Part shown: positions 3,890-10,709 of the stretch, piece after piece | Layout: each line of letters begins with the position of its first letter | How positions within the stretch are numbered: the first letter of the stretch is position 1 | Assembly (NCBI RefSeq): GCF_000265295.1 | Contig: NC_018002.1 | Location: 186,001-250,000, forward strand | Reading direction: 5' to 3' | From: Sulfurospirillum barnesii SES-3 | Lineage (GTDB): Bacteria; Campylobacterota; Campylobacteria; Campylobacterales; Sulfurospirillaceae | DNA length: 64,000 bases | The notes under the pieces: generated by a model | What the model was told of the DNA's origin: nothing | The model's input: the letters and a program-made list of their open reading frames with translations, nothing else | Databases searched by the model: none | Translations under genes and position numbers: made by a program

Positions 3890-6800
3890 ATGCCAAAACG
3901 TCAAGATATTAAAACCATATTATTAATCGGATCAGGTCCTATTGTTATCGGACAGGCATGTGAATTTGACTATTCAGGAACACAAGCAGCCAAAACGCTT
4001 AAAGAGCTTGGATACCGAGTCGTATTGGTAAACTCCAATCCAGCGACCATTATGACCGATCCTGAATTTGCAGACCGTACGTATATTGAACCAATTACGC
4101 CTGAAGTGATCGCACGCATTATTGAAAAAGAGAGTGTGGACGCCGTACTTCCAACGATGGGTGGACAAACCGCACTTAATGTTGCGATGACGATGCACGA
4201 ACAAGGTATGCTCACGAATGTTATCTTTTTAGGTGCGAACCCAGAAGCGATTAAAAAAGGTGAAGACAGACAAGCCTTTAAAGAGGCGATGATCAAAATT
4301 GGGATGGATTTACCGATTAGCGCTTATGCGTATAACATGGAAGATGCGTATGCCGCAGCGGAGAAAATTGGCTTTCCTCTCATCATTCGTGCATCCTATA
4401 CGCTAGCAGGTGGGGGAAGTGGTGTGGCATATAACATTGATGAATTCAAAGAACTTGCGATGGCAGGACTGGATGCGAGTCCGATTAATGAGATTTTGAT
4501 CGAAGAGTCACTGCTTGGTTGGAAAGAGTATGAGATGGAAGTGATTCGTGATCGTGCCGATAACTGCATCATCGTCTGCTCTATCGAAAACTTTGACCCC
4601 ATGGGTGTTCATACGGGAGATTCCATTACCATTGCACCAGCGCTTACCTTGACCGATAAAGAGTACCAACGTATGCGCAATGCCTCATTTGCGATTCTTC
4701 GTGAAATTGGTGTGGATACGGGGGGAAGTAACGTACAATTTTCTATCTGCCCTGAAACGGGTCGTATGACGGTTATCGAGATGAACCCACGTGTAAGCCG
4801 TAGCTCTGCACTTGCTTCTAAAGCGACGGGGTATCCTATCGCCAAAGTAGCAACACTTTTAGCGGTTGGTTTTACACTCGATGAGATTAAAAATGACATC
4901 ACAGGAACGGCGGCAAGTTTTGAGCCTGTTATTGACTACATCGTGACTAAAATTCCTCGTTTTACCTTTGAAAAATTCCCATTAGCGGATTCTACACTGA
5001 CCACTTCGATGAAGAGCGTGGGTGAAGTGATGGCGATTGGTCGAACGTTTAAAGAGTCTTTCCAAAAAGCGCTCTGTTCCCTTGAGACGAACCTTAGCGG
5101 TTTTGAGAGTATGAAAGTGGATGAAGATAAACTCAAAAATGAGATCAGAAGACCCAATGCCGATAGAGCACTCTATGTCGGTGAAGCGTTCCGTCGAGGT
5201 TATAGCGTGGAAGATGTCTTCAACTTAAGTAAAATTGATCCATGGTTTTTAAATCAAATCAAAGAGATTATTGATTTTGAGAAAAAGATTGATATGTTCA
5301 TTCTTAACGATGAAAAACTCTTACGTCAAGCCAAAACGATGGGCTTCTCTGATAAGATGATCGCCAAACTGATCAACAAAGAGGACAATTTAGAGCTCAC
5401 GACCAATGACATCTATTTTGCACGTAACAAACTGAACATTGACTTTGAGTACAATGAAGTCGATACATGTGCAGCAGAGTTTAAAGCCCTCACCCCGTAC
5501 CTTTACTCCACGACCAATGTGACCAAACTGCCTTTACATGTAAACGAAAAAGAGACACAGAAAAAAGTCATGATTATCGGCGGTGGACCTAACCGTATTG
5601 GTCAAGGCATCGAGTTTGACTACTGTTGTGTCCATGCGGCATATGCGCTGGGTGATTTGGGCGTTAAAACCATTATGTACAACTGTAACCCTGAAACCGT
5701 TTCGACCGATTATGATACCAGCGATATTCTTTACTTTGAACCAATTGATTTTGAACACGTCAGAAGCGTGGTAGAAAAAGAGAACCCCGATGGCGTTATC
5801 GTGCATTTTGGTGGTCAAACACCGCTTAAATTAGCAAAGAAACTCACCGTGATGGGTGCGAAAATTATCGGTACCACAGCACGTGTGATCGACATGGCAG
5901 AAGATAGAGAGAAATTCTCACAATTTATTACCGAAAACAACATCAAACAACCCAACAATGCCACCGCAACGAGCGAAGAAGAGGCGATAGAAAAAGCTAA
6001 AGAGATCGGCTATCCTGTTTTGGTACGTCCAAGTTATGTTCTGGGTGGAAGGGCGATGCGTATCGTTTACAATGAGAGCGAACTTCGTACGTATATGAAC
6101 GAAGCAGTCAGCGTAAGCCACAATTCACCTGTTCTTATCGATCAATTCCTTGATCGTGCCATTGAAGTGGATGTCGATGCGATTTGTGATGGTAAAGAGG
6201 TGTACATCGGTGGCATTATGCAACACATTGAAGAAGCAGGTATTCACAGTGGCGATAGCGCATGTTCTTTGCCTTCTATCTCTTTGAGTGATGAGATTCT
6301 TACCAAAATTGAGTCTCAAACCAAACGAATCGCCCTTAACCTAGGCGTTGTTGGTTTGATGAACATTCAATACGCCATCTATCAAGACGATGTTTACATG
6401 ATCGAAGTCAATCCTCGTGCGAGTCGTACAGTGCCATTTGTGAGTAAAGCAACAGGCATTCCGATGGCAAAAGTGGCGACACGTGTCATGTACCAAGGAA
6501 ATCTCAGAGAAGCGCTTGCTTTTTACGATAAATTTGACGTGGTACGTGAAGGTAATGGCATCTTAAAACCGAAGAAATTCGACCACGTTGCGGTGAAAGA
6601 AGCGGTATTCCCGTTCAATAAACTTCAAGGCGCAGACCTTATCTTAGGACCTGAGATGAAATCAACGGGTGAGGTTATGGGCATTAGCCGCAACTTCCCA
6701 GCTTCGTTTGCAAAAAGCCAAATTGCTTCTGCAAACGTGCTTCCCAAAAGCGGTTCCGTCTTTATCTCGTTAGTAGACATCGACAAATCCTTTGCCAAAG

Positions 6801-7151: not shown

Positions 7152-7592
7152 ATGAACCCCAAGCTTGTTTATCTCGCCCAAACAGAGACAACAGCAGGGT
7201 TCCTCTCTCAAAATGCTGAAGCACTTATCAAGACGAAAAACCGCCCAAGCGGTAAATCGTTTTTGATGAGTGTGGATTCACTCACCACCCTTCGTCATTT
7301 TACCAGAGTTCCAAAACGCCATAAAAACCGTGTCCGCAGAGCCCAAAAAACAACCTTTGCTTATCCGTGTGGACTAGCGATTCGTGTGGTCAAAGATGAA
7401 GCACATTTGCAGTTTCTACGAAAATTAAAATGGAGTTATTCGACTTCGTCAAACCCTAGTGGAAAGGGCTTTGATGAAGTGTATGCCAAAGAAAAAGCCG
7501 ATGTGATTATCTTTACATGTAAGGATTTTTTTGAGGCGAAACCTTCATCTATTTTTAGAGTAGGCACTGTGAGATTGAAGAGGCTTCGATAA
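7152..7592 (+). CDS. Short Sua5/YciO/YrdC-family protein
   Basis: The 146-residue product resembles a shortened Sua5/YrdC domain, the fold of enzymes making threonylcarbamoyl-AMP for the t6A modification of tRNA. I see the KTKNRPSGKSFLMSV stretch (family pattern K-x-RP...K.f...v), TTFAYPCGLAIRVV and a C-terminal SYSTSSNPSGKGF, matching the SANxSG motif. The usual N-terminal PTET..GL motif appears as AQTETTAGF. It begins 4 bases after carB with no clear ribosome site, suggesting coupled translation; C. jejuni also has a small gene here. It could be the TsaC enzyme of this lineage or a paralogue. FTC at 7513-7522 comes from a TTACATGTAA copy. Confidence 0.72.
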   Translation: MNPKLVYLAQTETTAGFLSQNAEALIKTKNRPSGKSFLMSVDSLTTLRHFTRVPKRHKNRVRRAQKTTFAYPCGLAIRVVKDEAHLQFLRKLKWSYSTSSNPSGKGFDEVYAKEKADVIIFTCKDFFEAKPSSIFRVGTVRLKRLR

Positions 7593-7598
7593 CTAAGA

Positions 7599-7620
7599 AG
7601 GCCACGCCAAAACGTAGCCT
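7599..7620. terminator. Possible hairpin between convergent genes
   Basis: The sequence AGGC-c-ACG ... CGT-a-GCCT can fold into a short stem with one mismatch and a 6-base loop, between the Sua5-family gene (plus) and the NifX-fold gene (minus). There is no T-run, so this is only a weak terminator candidate. Confidence 0.3.
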
Positions 7621-7627
7621 AAGATGT

Positions 7628-7993
7628 TTATTTATGACTGCACGTATGGTTTGGATTGATTTTTGCAACATTTCCTGCTAAAAATGCACGCAAAGAGTCT
7701 TCTAAAATTTCATTTTTATCATCAAAATAGACGTCAATACCAATGGCTAAAAACTTTTTCAAAGGTTCCCCACCAATACCACCAACAATTAAAACATCCG
7801 CTCCTAGGGATTGAATGTTATTGACCGCATCTGAACATGCCCCTGTCACATGCCCTGGGTTTTTATGAATCGCTACATCTTTTACAACACTATCTTCAAC
7901 AGTGATCACCGTATAATAATTTGCTTTACCAAAATGCGCACCACGTTTGGCACCTAAGCCCTCATCTTTTGTTGTAGGAAATACAATAATCAT
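7628..7993 (-). CDS. NifX/MTH1175-fold (dinitrogenase Fe-Mo cofactor biosynthesis family) protein
   Basis: A small single-domain protein (121 aa) of the dinitrogenase iron-molybdenum cofactor biosynthesis family, which includes NifX, the NifB C-terminus, archaeal MTH1175 and Desulfovibrio ORP. Signs are the FPTTKDEGLGAKRGAHFGKANYYTVI start, the central ACSDAVNNIQSLGADVLIVGGIGGEP and the final CSHK tail with a possible metal ligand. It is the last gene of the minus-strand cluster, 50 bases after its paralogue. No nif structural genes are present, so a role in nitrogenase is not implied; by analogy it may carry or insert a metal-sulfur cluster. Confidence 0.8.
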   Translation of the reverse strand: MIIVFPTTKDEGLGAKRGAHFGKANYYTVITVEDSVVKDVAIHKNPGHVTGACSDAVNNIQSLGADVLIVGGIGGEPLKKFLAIGIDVYFDDKNEILEDSLRAFLAGNVAKINPNHTCSHK

Positions 7994-8043
7994 AACTTAA
8001 CCTTTTATTTATTTTTTGAAATAGTTATTTTAACGCTTTTAAA

Positions 8044-8382
8044 CTAAAACTTTTCCAGTGCACCCTCTTGATACGCTTTATACGCTTCAGCCACACTCAT
8101 CTCTCCTGCGCCCACGTAGATAACCGTATTCATTTGTGCTAACACTGCACGGGCATTTTCTCCTGGACCATTGCCTGTAATGATGACATCCACCCCCAAA
8201 TCTGCCATGAGTTTTGCCATTTTAGGACCCGCTCCATGTTCTTGATTGACAATTTCACGGTTGTCGTGAATGGTGATTTGCCCACTTTGCTCATCAAAAA
8301 TAAGGACATAATAGGTACGTCCAAAGCGTGCTTCCATCATTGATTCCCATGCAGGATCAACCGTTGTAAAGGCTAGTTTCAT
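8044..8382 (-). CDS. NifX/MTH1175-fold protein, second copy
   Basis: 112-residue paralogue of the next gene in the cluster. It shows the same fold pattern: KLAFTTVDPAWESMMEARFGRTYYVLIFDE, then MADLGVDVIITGNGPGENARAVL. It lacks Cys entirely, unlike its neighbour with CSDA and C-terminal CSHK, so any cluster binding would have to use other groups or partner proteins. It starts one base after the stop of the adjacent ATPase gene, so translation is probably coupled. In ORP-type systems such a small protein works with MinD-like ATPases. Confidence 0.78.
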   Translation of the reverse strand: MKLAFTTVDPAWESMMEARFGRTYYVLIFDEQSGQITIHDNREIVNQEHGAGPKMAKLMADLGVDVIITGNGPGENARAVLAQMNTVIYVGAGEMSVAEAYKAYQEGALEKF

Positions 8383-8383
8383 T

Positions 8384-9262
8384 TTATACTCCTAATGTGT
8401 TTTTTATGGTTTCAAAACTTTCTTCAAGTAACTTTTTTAAAGGCACATCGCTGTATTCACTAATGGTTTTGGCTTCAACCATCGCTTGTGTGAAGGCTTT
8501 AGTGTAAGGGATATTTTTTACATGTAAAATGGATTCTTCCCTTAAAAAGGCTTCAATTTCCTCACACACTTTAGGGTTTAGGTCGGCTTTATTGATGATA
8601 CATCCTGCTTTAATGCGAAACTTTTTCACCACTTCATAAACCCGTTTTAAATCGTGCAATCCTGAGAGGGTTGGCTCTGTGACCAACAGTACAAAGTTTG
8701 CCCCACTTAAAGAAGAGACCACAGGACAGCCAATGCCAGGTGAGCCATCGACAATCATTAAAGCTTTGTTTTTCTCCAGTGCAATCGCTTTTCCCTCTTT
8801 TTTGACCTTGGCGACCAATTTACCTGAATTCTCCGCTCCAATGCCAAGCTTTGCGTGAATCATATCGCTTCCGTATTTTGTAGAGGAGTGAAACCAAGCA
8901 CCTGCCAAACGCTCGTTCATCGAAATCGCCTTTGGACGACACACTTTTTCACAGTACCCACACCCTTCACACGAGAGTTCATCAATGACATAACGCCCTT
9001 TTTCAAAGCGTATCGCATCAAAACGACACACATCGGCACAGCGACCACAATTGCGACACGCTTCTTCATCGATGTGGGCTAAAAGACCGCTGTAAAAATC
9101 CTCTTTATGAGCAAAGTCTGGCTGAAGTAACAAGTGCATATCCGCTGCATCCACATCGCAATCCACCACCACGCACGACTCTTTAGCTAAACTAGCAAGG
9201 GCTGCGGTGATGGAGGTTTTTCCCGTACCCCCTTTGCCTGAAATAACCACTATCTCTTTCAT
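8384..9262 (-). CDS. MinD-superfamily ATPase with two [4Fe-4S] ferredoxin motifs
   Basis: A deviant Walker A P-loop opens the protein (VVISGKGGTGKTS), followed near residues 70-110 by an inserted bacterial ferredoxin domain with CRNCGRCADVC and CEGCGYCEKVC motifs, then the rest of the MinD/Mrp fold (DGSPGIGCPV switch region, VTEPTLSGLHDL, CIINKAD). 292 aa. The family is common in anaerobes beside NifX-like proteins; in Desulfovibrio vulgaris two such ATPases (DVU2103/DVU2104) belong to the ORP complex. Its start overlaps the stop of the upstream ATPase gene by 4 bases. A TTACATGTAA copy (8518-8527) encodes LHV. Confidence 0.88.
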   Translation of the reverse strand: MKEIVVISGKGGTGKTSITAALASLAKESCVVVDCDVDAADMHLLLQPDFAHKEDFYSGLLAHIDEEACRNCGRCADVCRFDAIRFEKGRYVIDELSCEGCGYCEKVCRPKAISMNERLAGAWFHSSTKYGSDMIHAKLGIGAENSGKLVAKVKKEGKAIALEKNKALMIVDGSPGIGCPVVSSLSGANFVLLVTEPTLSGLHDLKRVYEVVKKFRIKAGCIINKADLNPKVCEEIEAFLREESILHVKNIPYTKAFTQAMVEAKTISEYSDVPLKKLLEESFETIKNTLGV

Positions 9263-10125
9263 TGTTCCACTCCTTGTGAGAAGTTCTTTACATGTAAAGC
9301 AATGTTTTGAATTTCATCTTTAAAGGATGGACTTTCTTTATAGATGAGTTTTCCCTCCGAATAGAGCTTTGCCGCTTCCATAAGATGAGGGATTTTCCCT
9401 AAAATTGGGATGTTTTCGCTTTGGCAGTAAGCCTCAACCTCGTCATTTCCCATACCATAACGGTTAATCACCACGCCAAACTTTTTCTTTAAAATGCGTG
9501 TCGTTTCCACCGCAAGCGTTAAATCATGCAAACCAAAAGGGGTAGGCTCTGTCACTAAAATAACAAAATCCGCATCTTTAATCGCCTCAATCACGGGGCA
9601 TGATGTCCCTGGAGGTGAATCAAAAATCTTGATAGCCTCATCATCAAAATGTTGATCAACGTATTTTTTTGTTTGCGCAATCAACGAGACGGCCTGCTCT
9701 TCCCCAATGTTTAAACGCCCTTCCACAAACTCTATATCCCCCGCTAGAAAATGGCTGAGTTCGCCCATTTTTATAGGCTCCATCGGCAGTGAACCTGTCG
9801 GACAAAGCTCTGAACAGGCGTAACAACTGTGGCAGAGATTTTGGAAGACTAAAATTTCATTGGCAATGAAAAGCAAAGCGTTAAAATTACAATTTTGAAC
9901 ACACTCCGCACACAAGGTGCATGAAGTGCTATCCCAGCGTGGAATCATCTTCATTTTGTCTTCCTTGCGTAGAAGCTCTCCATTTAAAAAAAGATTTGAA
10001 TTTGGCTCTTCCACGTCCAAATCAACTAAAACAACACGCTGGGTTTCTCCTAAATAGGTGGCTAAATTGGTGGAGAGGGTCGTTTTACCCGTTCCACCTT
10101 TACCGCTGGCTATGGCTATTTTCAT
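9259..10125 (-). CDS. MinD-superfamily ATPase with ferredoxin domain, paralogue
   Basis: 288-residue paralogue of the next gene: P-loop IASGKGGTGKTTLSTN, inserted ferredoxin domain CTLCAECVQNC / CHSCYACSELC, switch FDSPPGTSCPV, and VTEPTPFGLHDL. I start it at 10125 rather than at the upstream in-frame ATG 10155, because the ten extra residues lie inside the regulator gene and a GGAGGGAG ribosome site sits just before 10125. It overlaps the DUF134 gene by 4 bases (ATGA), so the cluster is one translationally coupled operon. The two ATPases may form a heterodimer that binds or transfers Fe-S or Mo-containing clusters; this is inferred from family behaviour. Confidence 0.88.
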   Translation of the reverse strand: MKIAIASGKGGTGKTTLSTNLATYLGETQRVVLVDLDVEEPNSNLFLNGELLRKEDKMKMIPRWDSTSCTLCAECVQNCNFNALLFIANEILVFQNLCHSCYACSELCPTGSLPMEPIKMGELSHFLAGDIEFVEGRLNIGEEQAVSLIAQTKKYVDQHFDDEAIKIFDSPPGTSCPVIEAIKDADFVILVTEPTPFGLHDLTLAVETTRILKKKFGVVINRYGMGNDEVEAYCQSENIPILGKIPHLMEAAKLYSEGKLIYKESPSFKDEIQNIALHVKNFSQGVEQ

Positions 10126-10574
10126 GCTCCCTCCTCTTCTGTGTGATGACAACACGATCCATGCCCAAACCCTTTAGCAAAATCTATCAGTTCACTTGAA
10201 TGACACAGAGGGCACTCTTTCTCTTCTTCATGGATACGTGCTCTAAAACGGTGGTTGCATGCCTTGCATTGGTAAACATTTTCTTTAAAATGCACACTTC
10301 CTCCATCAATCACCACCTTAGAGCCTTCAACAAGCATCAACGCCATTTTTTTGCGAGCTCGCTCTATCAGTCTGGTGAAGGTTGAGCGAGAAATACCCAT
10401 CATCTCAGCTGCCTCTTCGTGTTCTAAGCCTTCATAATCCGCCAAACGAATCGCTTCGTACTCATCCAGTTCTAGGGTAATGGTTGCTAGTTTGGTGGCT
10501 GCGACACCTGCAGGCTTAAAGGTCGTAAATAAAGGAGGGTGACTCACCGCTCTTGCTTTTGGATTGCGTGCCAT
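10122..10574 (-). CDS. DUF134 family DNA-binding regulator
   Basis: 150-residue predicted transcription factor. Residues ~38-75 form a sigma-70 region-4-like helix-turn-helix (ELDEYEAIRLADYEGLEHEEAAEMMGISRSTFTRLIERARKK, seen in shorter pieces in homologues), followed by a zinc-ribbon-like CKAC...CPLC pair and a His/Cys-rich tail (GHGSCCHHTEEE). DUF134 proteins habitually sit beside NifX-fold and MinD/ferredoxin ATPases, as here. It is the first gene of the minus-strand operon and faces a divergent gene across a region with paired symmetric sites, so it probably represses or activates both. The metal-binding tail suggests it senses metal or cluster status, which is an inference. Confidence 0.87.
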   Translation of the reverse strand: MARNPKARAVSHPPLFTTFKPAGVAATKLATITLELDEYEAIRLADYEGLEHEEAAEMMGISRSTFTRLIERARKKMALMLVEGSKVVIDGGSVHFKENVYQCKACNHRFRARIHEEEKECPLCHSSELIDFAKGFGHGSCCHHTEEEGA

Positions 10575-10605
10575 TTGGTTTCACCTTTCAATAAATTAAA
10601 GCCAT

Positions 10606-10633
10606 TATAATACACATATGTGCATAATGTCAA
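10606..10633 (-). promoter_or_regulatory. Sigma-70-type promoter of the DUF134/ATPase operon
   Basis: On the minus strand TTGACA (complement of 10628-10633) is followed after 18 bases by TATAAT (complement of 10604-10609), both perfect consensus hexamers. The spacer contains the palindrome CACATATGTG at 10613-10622. It lies 30-60 bases upstream of the DUF134 start. Confidence 0.75.
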
Positions 10634-10688
10634 GAGTTATTATTGACATATGTGCACTATGAAGGTATAATTTTTTTCAAACATATGT
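10614..10688. promoter_or_regulatory. Triple ACATATGT operator array in the divergent region
   Basis: ACATATGT occurs at 10614-10621, 10646-10653 and 10681-10688, spaced 32 and 35 bases (about three helical turns). The first two are part of longer direct repeats, CATATGTGCATAATG (10615-10629) and CATATGTGCACTATG (10647-10661). One lies in the minus-strand promoter spacer, one overlaps the -35/spacer of the plus promoter, one lies downstream of the plus -10. This layout suits a repressor controlling both directions; the DUF134 protein is the obvious candidate. Confidence 0.65.
10643..10671 (+). promoter_or_regulatory. Consensus sigma-70 promoter of the divergent unknown gene
   Basis: TTGACA at 10643-10648 and TATAAT at 10666-10671 with exactly 17 bases between them. 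Such a fully consensus -35 is unusual in this phylum, whose housekeeping promoters mostly lack a -35, which makes a strongly controlled promoter likely. The ribosome site AAAGGGG for the gene at 10710 follows. Confidence 0.75.
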
Positions 10689-10709
10689 TTAAAATAAAGG
10701 GGTTTTGAG

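Follow-up and report, generated by a model that had tools for sequence, protein, structure and literature searches.

The closest described counterpart of the locus analyzed here is the Orange Protein (ORP) complex of Desulfovibrio vulgaris, which comprises Orp3, Orp4, Orp5, Orp8 and MrpORP (Orp9) and is encoded by divergent transcription units (PMC6345978; PMC3897727). Orp3 and Orp4 are paralogous MinD-type ATPases that each carry two [4Fe-4S] motifs, and Orp8 is homologous to proteins that hold a [S2MoS2CuS2MoS2] cluster (PMC6345978). A role at the septum has been put forward by the ORP authors as a ‘tempting hypothesis’ (PMC4672049). A second point of reference is IssA of Pyrococcus furiosus, in which a NifX-fold globular domain is joined to a long cationic, Gly-rich tail; its authors remark that fewer than four cysteines are present in many proteins of this family (PMC5524996). 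The nitrogenase-cofactor carriers NifX, NafY and NifB share the same superfamily fold.

The stretch of DNA examined (hereafter the window) spans 64,000 nucleotides of Sulfurospirillum barnesii SES-3, positions 186001-250000 of a single-contig genome of 2.51 Mb that is 99.99% complete. The ORF listing of the window places five ORFs on the minus strand at 7628-10574, in the transcriptional order DUF134, ATP1, ATP2, NifXa and NifXb (Table 1). The composition originally predicted for this operon, namely a DUF134 regulator, two ferredoxin-containing ATPases and two NifX-fold proteins, is borne out by the ORFs and by Pfam: the DUF134 match (PF02001) scores 91.1 bits against a curated cut-off of 27, both ATPases show CbiA/ParA P-loop and Fer4 clusters, and NifXa and NifXb match Nitro_FeMo-Co with 57 and 52 bits (cut-off 26.3). 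A broken cluster, which had been named beforehand as grounds for doubt, is not what we find, as all five frames are intact. Three of the four junctions are as tight as had been claimed (ATGA overlaps at 10122-10125 and 9259-9262, and a single-base gap at 8383), but the last is a gap of 50 bases (7994-8043) ahead of NifXb. The ATP1 start is the ATG at 10125; an alternative GTG at 10155 is unsupported by relatives. Because relatives with identities of ~40-95% keep the same genes in the same order, the five-gene set is not a chance assembly. We assign a probability of roughly 55% to the reading that this operon is a DUF134-controlled, ORP-type module that handles a metal-sulfur cluster. The unit reaches further upstream, through the intergenic region 10575-10709 into a divergent gene pair. 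Downstream, a 146-amino-acid Sua5/YciO/YrdC-like short protein (7152-7592) is encoded convergently with the operon.

Table 1. Genes and regulatory features of the operon and its divergent unit (window coordinates)
Feature	Position	Strand	Remarks
Weak terminator-like hairpin, 9 pairs	7599..7620	-	directly 3′ of NifXb; overall number of such sites not above shuffles
NifXb, NifX-fold protein, 121 aa, TM1816/PH0822-like	7628..7993	-	C53 and, near the C-terminus, C118/H120 are conserved within Campylobacterota
NifXa, ORP-like NifX-fold protein, 112 aa	8044..8382	-	zero cysteine
ATP2, second ferredoxin-insert MinD-type ATPase, 292 aa	8384..9262	-	paralogue of ATP1
ATP1, MinD/Mrp-type P-loop ATPase, 288 aa	9259..10125	-	inserted 2x[4Fe-4S] ferredoxin domain; COG1149/Orp3-Orp4-like
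DUF134 (UPF0251) regulator, 150 aa	10122..10574	-	Pfam; sigma-70 region-4-like HTH; C-terminal CxxC...CxxC zinc-ribbon-like part; Cys/His-rich tail
Operon promoter, TTGACA-18-TATAAT	10604..10633	-	12/12 consensus sigma-70 bases
Predicted DUF134 operator 1, TGCACATATGTGTA, core ACATATGT at 10614-10621	10611..10624	-	within spacer of operon promoter
Divergent promoter, TTGACA-17-TATAAT	10643..10671	+	12/12 consensus bases
Predicted DUF134 operator 2, core ACATATGT at 10646-10653	10643..10656	.	overlaps -35 of divergent promoter
Weaker third operator-like palindrome, AAACATATGTTT, core at 10681-10688	10678..10691	.	downstream of divergent -10
Divergent gene, 175 aa	10710..11237	+	hydrophobic N-terminus, probable membrane anchor
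Metallo-beta-lactamase (MBL)-fold hydrolase, 278 aa	11315..12151	+	Pfam

Both ATPases carry a deviant Walker A motif (SGKGGTGKT). Among bacterial and archaeal sequences, none of the eight ferredoxin cysteines varies in ATP1 (87/87), and a single substitution, to Ser, occurs across 88 ATP2 sequences. Equally invariant is a cysteine in switch II (DSPPGTSCP in ATP1, 87/87; DGSPGIGCP in ATP2, 88/88), with C176 and C179 lying seven residues past the switch-II aspartates D169 and D172, respectively. In NifH, Cys132, a ligand of the bridging cluster, lies seven residues past the switch-II aspartate D125. From this shared spacing, which is a match of residue counts rather than an alignment, we argue that the switch-II cysteine of ATP1 and ATP2 may form a metal site responsive to nucleotide state. 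ATP2 accompanies ATP1 in 94 of 95 ATP1-containing loci, and a Lentimicrobiaceae MAG (L105:6956-8743) encodes the two as one fused protein of 595 amino acids. This fusion supports a heterodimer as the probable working form of ATP1 and ATP2.

The structure model of ATP1 (pLDDT 96) matches MinD, HypB, Mrp (AF_226) and BchL, with MinD-fold proteins first, and by fold alone a spatial role therefore stays compatible with this protein. The published septum hypothesis and the nearness to MinD both count in favor of a role in cell division or polarity, in which ATP1 and ATP2 would be MinD/ParA switches that place the septum. We regard this role as highly improbable: it leaves the invariant ferredoxin and switch-II cysteines unexplained, no division gene was recognized beside the operon, and a survey of Campylobacterota finds ATP1 to be patchy, occurring in only 15/397 genomes and 10/68 genera. 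ATP1 and ATP2 yield no match to the minD_bact equivalog (40 bits versus a cut-off of 213). A search for an amphipathic C-terminal helix like that of MinD returned unremarkable moments (0.32 and 0.38), to which we give no weight either way.

NifXa matches the profiles of TM1290, ORP and MTH1175 (2wfb, ORP, at E 2e-13), and its structure model (pLDDT 93.7) is closest in the PDB to apo-ORP of D. gigas (TM 0.91), compared to 0.70 for NafY and 0.67 for NifX. NifXa is also the NifX-like protein that the original prediction had correctly described as devoid of cysteine. We reject this feature as an oddity, given that 29/72 NifXa homologues have no cysteine and that the aligned parts of the solved relatives TM1290, ORP and MTH1175 are likewise free of it. 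NifXb is nearest by profile to TM1816 and PH0822, and its C118 is conserved in 36/40 sequences. Neither protein matches the nifX equivalog.

The absence of this match bears on a link to nitrogenase, to which the original prediction had also spoken by pointing out that there is no nif locus. This holds within the window but is false for the genome, which carries nif genes at ~0.96-1.01 Mb: NifH (397 bits, 1.009 Mb), four Oxidored_nitro proteins that we took for the products of nifDK and nifEN from their positions (1.010-1.013 and 0.969-0.972 Mb), as well as NifB (560 bits) and two NifX-family proteins. Seven PF02579 matches are present in the genome in total. These genes, together with the NifX-fold family of the carriers, are what would recommend the operon as an accessory nitrogenase-cofactor module. 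However, NifH is found in 7/15 module-bearing Campylobacterota genomes and is absent from the other 8, whereas 11 of 13 comparison genomes that lack the module have it. Because module presence does not track NifH, the operon is nif-independent, and a nitrogenase link, which we consider scarcely credible, was rejected. Thus, the earlier conclusion stands even though its premise does not.

Beyond Campylobacterota, a scan of GTDB genomes with an ATP1 profile found at least 323 relatives among candidate stretches, and the best 80 of these at least 323 relatives are spread over many bacterial phyla and archaea. The 95 collected loci include an ORP-like NifX protein in 86 cases, DUF134 in 45, DUF5320 in 40, a Gly-rich zinc-ribbon protein in 36, NifU_N in 20 and sigma-54 activators in 14, with NifXb-type and NifU-type partners not being universal. 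Counts of Mrp and NifXb in this set contain weak cross-matches and were left out of account. DUF134 is encoded somewhere in the genome for 39/50 module-bearing genomes outside Campylobacterota. An MrpORP-type ATPase follows ATP2 in orp-like loci such as L137 and L169, and MrpORP/ApbC proteins occur among the neighbors. The presence of NifU_N, MrpORP/ApbC and sigma-54 activators among these partners suggests Fe-S chemistry, and we consider an Fe-S cargo somewhat more likely than a Mo/Cu-S cargo. A SLAC1-family transporter gene lies between NifXa and NifXb in one locus (L055:1962-2927) and beside DUF134 in L063, with a similar gene in L062. In three close relatives, a gene between DUF134 and ATP1 encodes a small protein that is rich in Gly/Asn and ends in a zinc ribbon (L047:4489-4743, L048:6166-6425 and L054 ~4663-4943). 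This gene is absent from the window strain and from L053, where DUF134 overlaps ATP1; it was not found elsewhere in the source genome, which is a weak negative as the search had no positive control.

A tree of ATP1 plus ATP2 unites the Campylobacterota sequences in one clade (95/83), outside the clade (100/100) of L112, L137 and L169, loci with orp-like neighbors. A weakly resolved NifX tree hinted that the Sulfurospirillum-type operon had a horizontal origin of its own; this reading was set aside because the ATPase tree, with its single Campylobacterota clade, does not support it.

Two other cargoes were weighed. With a Mo-Cu-S cluster on the carriers, like the one in D. gigas ORP, the module could buffer Mo and Cu in sulfidic conditions. 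The ORP-like fold of NifXa and the cluster-holding homologues of Orp8 count for this thiomolybdate reading, as does a DUF134-NifX fusion gene (G240; L063:4565-10507) located between a SLAC1/TDT-family transporter and an apparent molybdate-transport set that includes a ModE-like TOBE regulator, a molbindin-like TOBE protein, an ABC permease, an ATPase and a binding protein. We nevertheless judge it rather unlikely, since no Mo transport or Mo-cofactor gene was recognized beside the window operon and the partners elsewhere include Fe-S-type proteins (NifU_N, MrpORP/ApbC). Less likely again is storage of iron and sulfur as thioferrate, in which NifX-fold proteins and Gly/Arg-rich partners would build an Fe-S store. 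IssA belongs to the same InterPro family (PMC5524996), and relatives of the operon encode, between DUF134 and ATP1, a small protein rich in Gly/Asn or Gly/Arg (DUF5320 Gly/Arg-rich proteins in 40/95 loci; the zinc-ribbon type in 36/95). Yet NifXa ends with its domain and NifXb extends only ~12 residues beyond, so both are without the long tail of IssA, and the small Gly-rich gene is missing from both the operon and, as far as the search went, the genome.

The most testable result concerns control of the module. Two perfect promoters are arranged back to back, with one copy of a palindrome overlapping each of them; its core, ACATATGT, occurs only four times in the 64-kb window, with three copies falling at 10614-10688. 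We examined 97 distinct DUF134 genes, some of which share ancestry and so are not fully independent, although their flanking DNA has diverged. The core ACATATGT lies upstream of 46 of these genes, compared to an expected 0.56 and a maximum of 3 in 50 shuffles, and it is their commonest upstream palindromic 8-mer (the next reaches 13 genes). Allowing two or fewer mismatches, the 14-mer TG[AC]ACATATGT[GT]CA precedes 59/97 genes (61%), versus 0.4% for shuffles and 3.7% for the upstream regions of other ORFs in the same loci. The consensus of these 59 sites is TGAACATATGTTCA with A/T-rich flanks. Sites derive from Campylobacterota, Bacteroidota, Calditrichota, Spirochaetota, Neomarinimicrobiota, Chloroflexota, Omnitrophota, an alphaproteobacterial MAG and others, while a site is missing or poor before ~29-39% of DUF134 genes, a group with many archaeal or distant members. 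This conserved palindromic operator, TGAACATATGTTCA, before DUF134 genes of many phyla is a new result, and binding by DUF134 is predicted from sequence.

Because both promoters overlap operator copies, DUF134 probably represses its own operon and the divergent unit, including the MBL-fold gene; judged by position alone, the operators would also suit activation. A regulon beyond the operon was rejected for the source genome, where exact GCACATATGTNNA sites number only three, the third inside coding sequence, and one-mismatch matches are close to the reversed control (27 versus 25). A local regulator is therefore more likely. In the divergent unit, the 175-amino-acid protein has no Pfam or NCBIfam match, and its homologues adjoin DUF134 genes in G109, G235 and L065; the MBL-fold family occurs near the module in 16/95 loci of several phyla.

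No functional study of DUF134 was found in the literature searched. DUF134 is fused to a NifX-fold protein in 14/97 cases, and 36 more genes have one within 1.5 kb. We tentatively propose, at somewhat less than even odds, that the DUF134 proteins form a widespread autorepressor family recognizing TGAACATATGTTCA and responding to the metal-sulfur cargo of NifX-fold carriers, acting in trans or as a fused domain. If true, anaerobes would possess in DUF134 a regulator family dedicated to sensing metal clusters, with an operator common across phyla. The source genome has a second DUF134 gene (2125.9-2127.1 kb; L010:8938-10135), which encodes a NifX-fused protein of 193 amino acids, is divergent from another NifX gene and has two degenerate operator-like sites upstream. 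In G134 (L065:4907-9603), genes for cytochrome bd oxidase, a NifX gene and a homologue of the 175-amino-acid gene run divergently from a DUF134-NifX fusion gene. In G125 (L046:4994-8433), genes for DUF134, a NifX-like protein, a cytochrome-c-like protein, a Crp-like regulator and a hybrid-cluster (prismane) protein lie in a row, making a link to nitrosative stress possible.

For a module that handles a metal-sulfur cluster, we envision that an ATP1/ATP2 heterodimer would use ATP turnover and ferredoxin electrons to load or release the cluster on the carriers. In NifXa, as in ORP, no cysteine ligands would be involved in holding it, while NifXb has conserved Cys/His residues. DUF134, as a dimeric autorepressor on TGAACATATGTTCA sites over both divergent promoters, would keep its operon and the 10710/MBL unit silent until it is released by a metal or cluster signal, for which its Cys/His tail may be the sensor. 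Anaerobic bacteria and archaea widely carry ORP-type modules, and the DUF134 operator provides a direct handle on their purpose: the signal that releases DUF134 should reveal what the module senses, and operator searches could define the DUF134 regulon in any genome.

How closely, then, does this locus resemble known systems? It shares the superfamily fold with NifX, NafY and NifB, but NifXa is structurally less similar to NifX and NafY (TM 0.67-0.70) and the module does not depend on nif genes. With IssA, it shares a NifX-fold globular domain in which cysteines are few or absent; an ATPase pair is not mentioned alongside IssA in the available text (PMC5524996). The original likening to ORP holds insofar as NifXa is closest to D. 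gigas ORP, thereby providing the ORP-fold small protein that Orp8 represents (2wfb E 2e-13; TM 0.91), and the two ferredoxin-insert ATPases fit Orp3 and Orp4 as compared by published description. A second small metal-binding protein and divergent transcription units are also shared. Even so, this is not the D. vulgaris orp system. MrpORP (Orp9) is absent from the window cluster (best score 46 bits versus a cut-off of 450), and sigma-54 control of the D. vulgaris type finds no activator gene in the window, where the divergent promoters have 12/12 sigma-70 consensus bases and are accompanied by DUF134. Moreover, the window operon adds NifXb and the MBL-fold gene, and its ATPases lie outside the clade of ORP-like loci. 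Nearer matches are the DUF134-ATPase-ATPase-NifX modules of Bacteroidota, Calditrichota, Spirochaetota and Neomarinimicrobiota, which have the same order, ~55-65% ATP1 identity and the same operator; Gly-rich DUF5320 and zinc-ribbon proteins are their usual additions, whereas Campylobacterota add NifXb. Given that two features of the D. vulgaris system, MrpORP and sigma-54 control, are lacking, the operon is a variant of the ORP-type module, in which an ATPase pair of an already known kind is combined with DUF134 instead of MrpORP and a sigma-54 activator.
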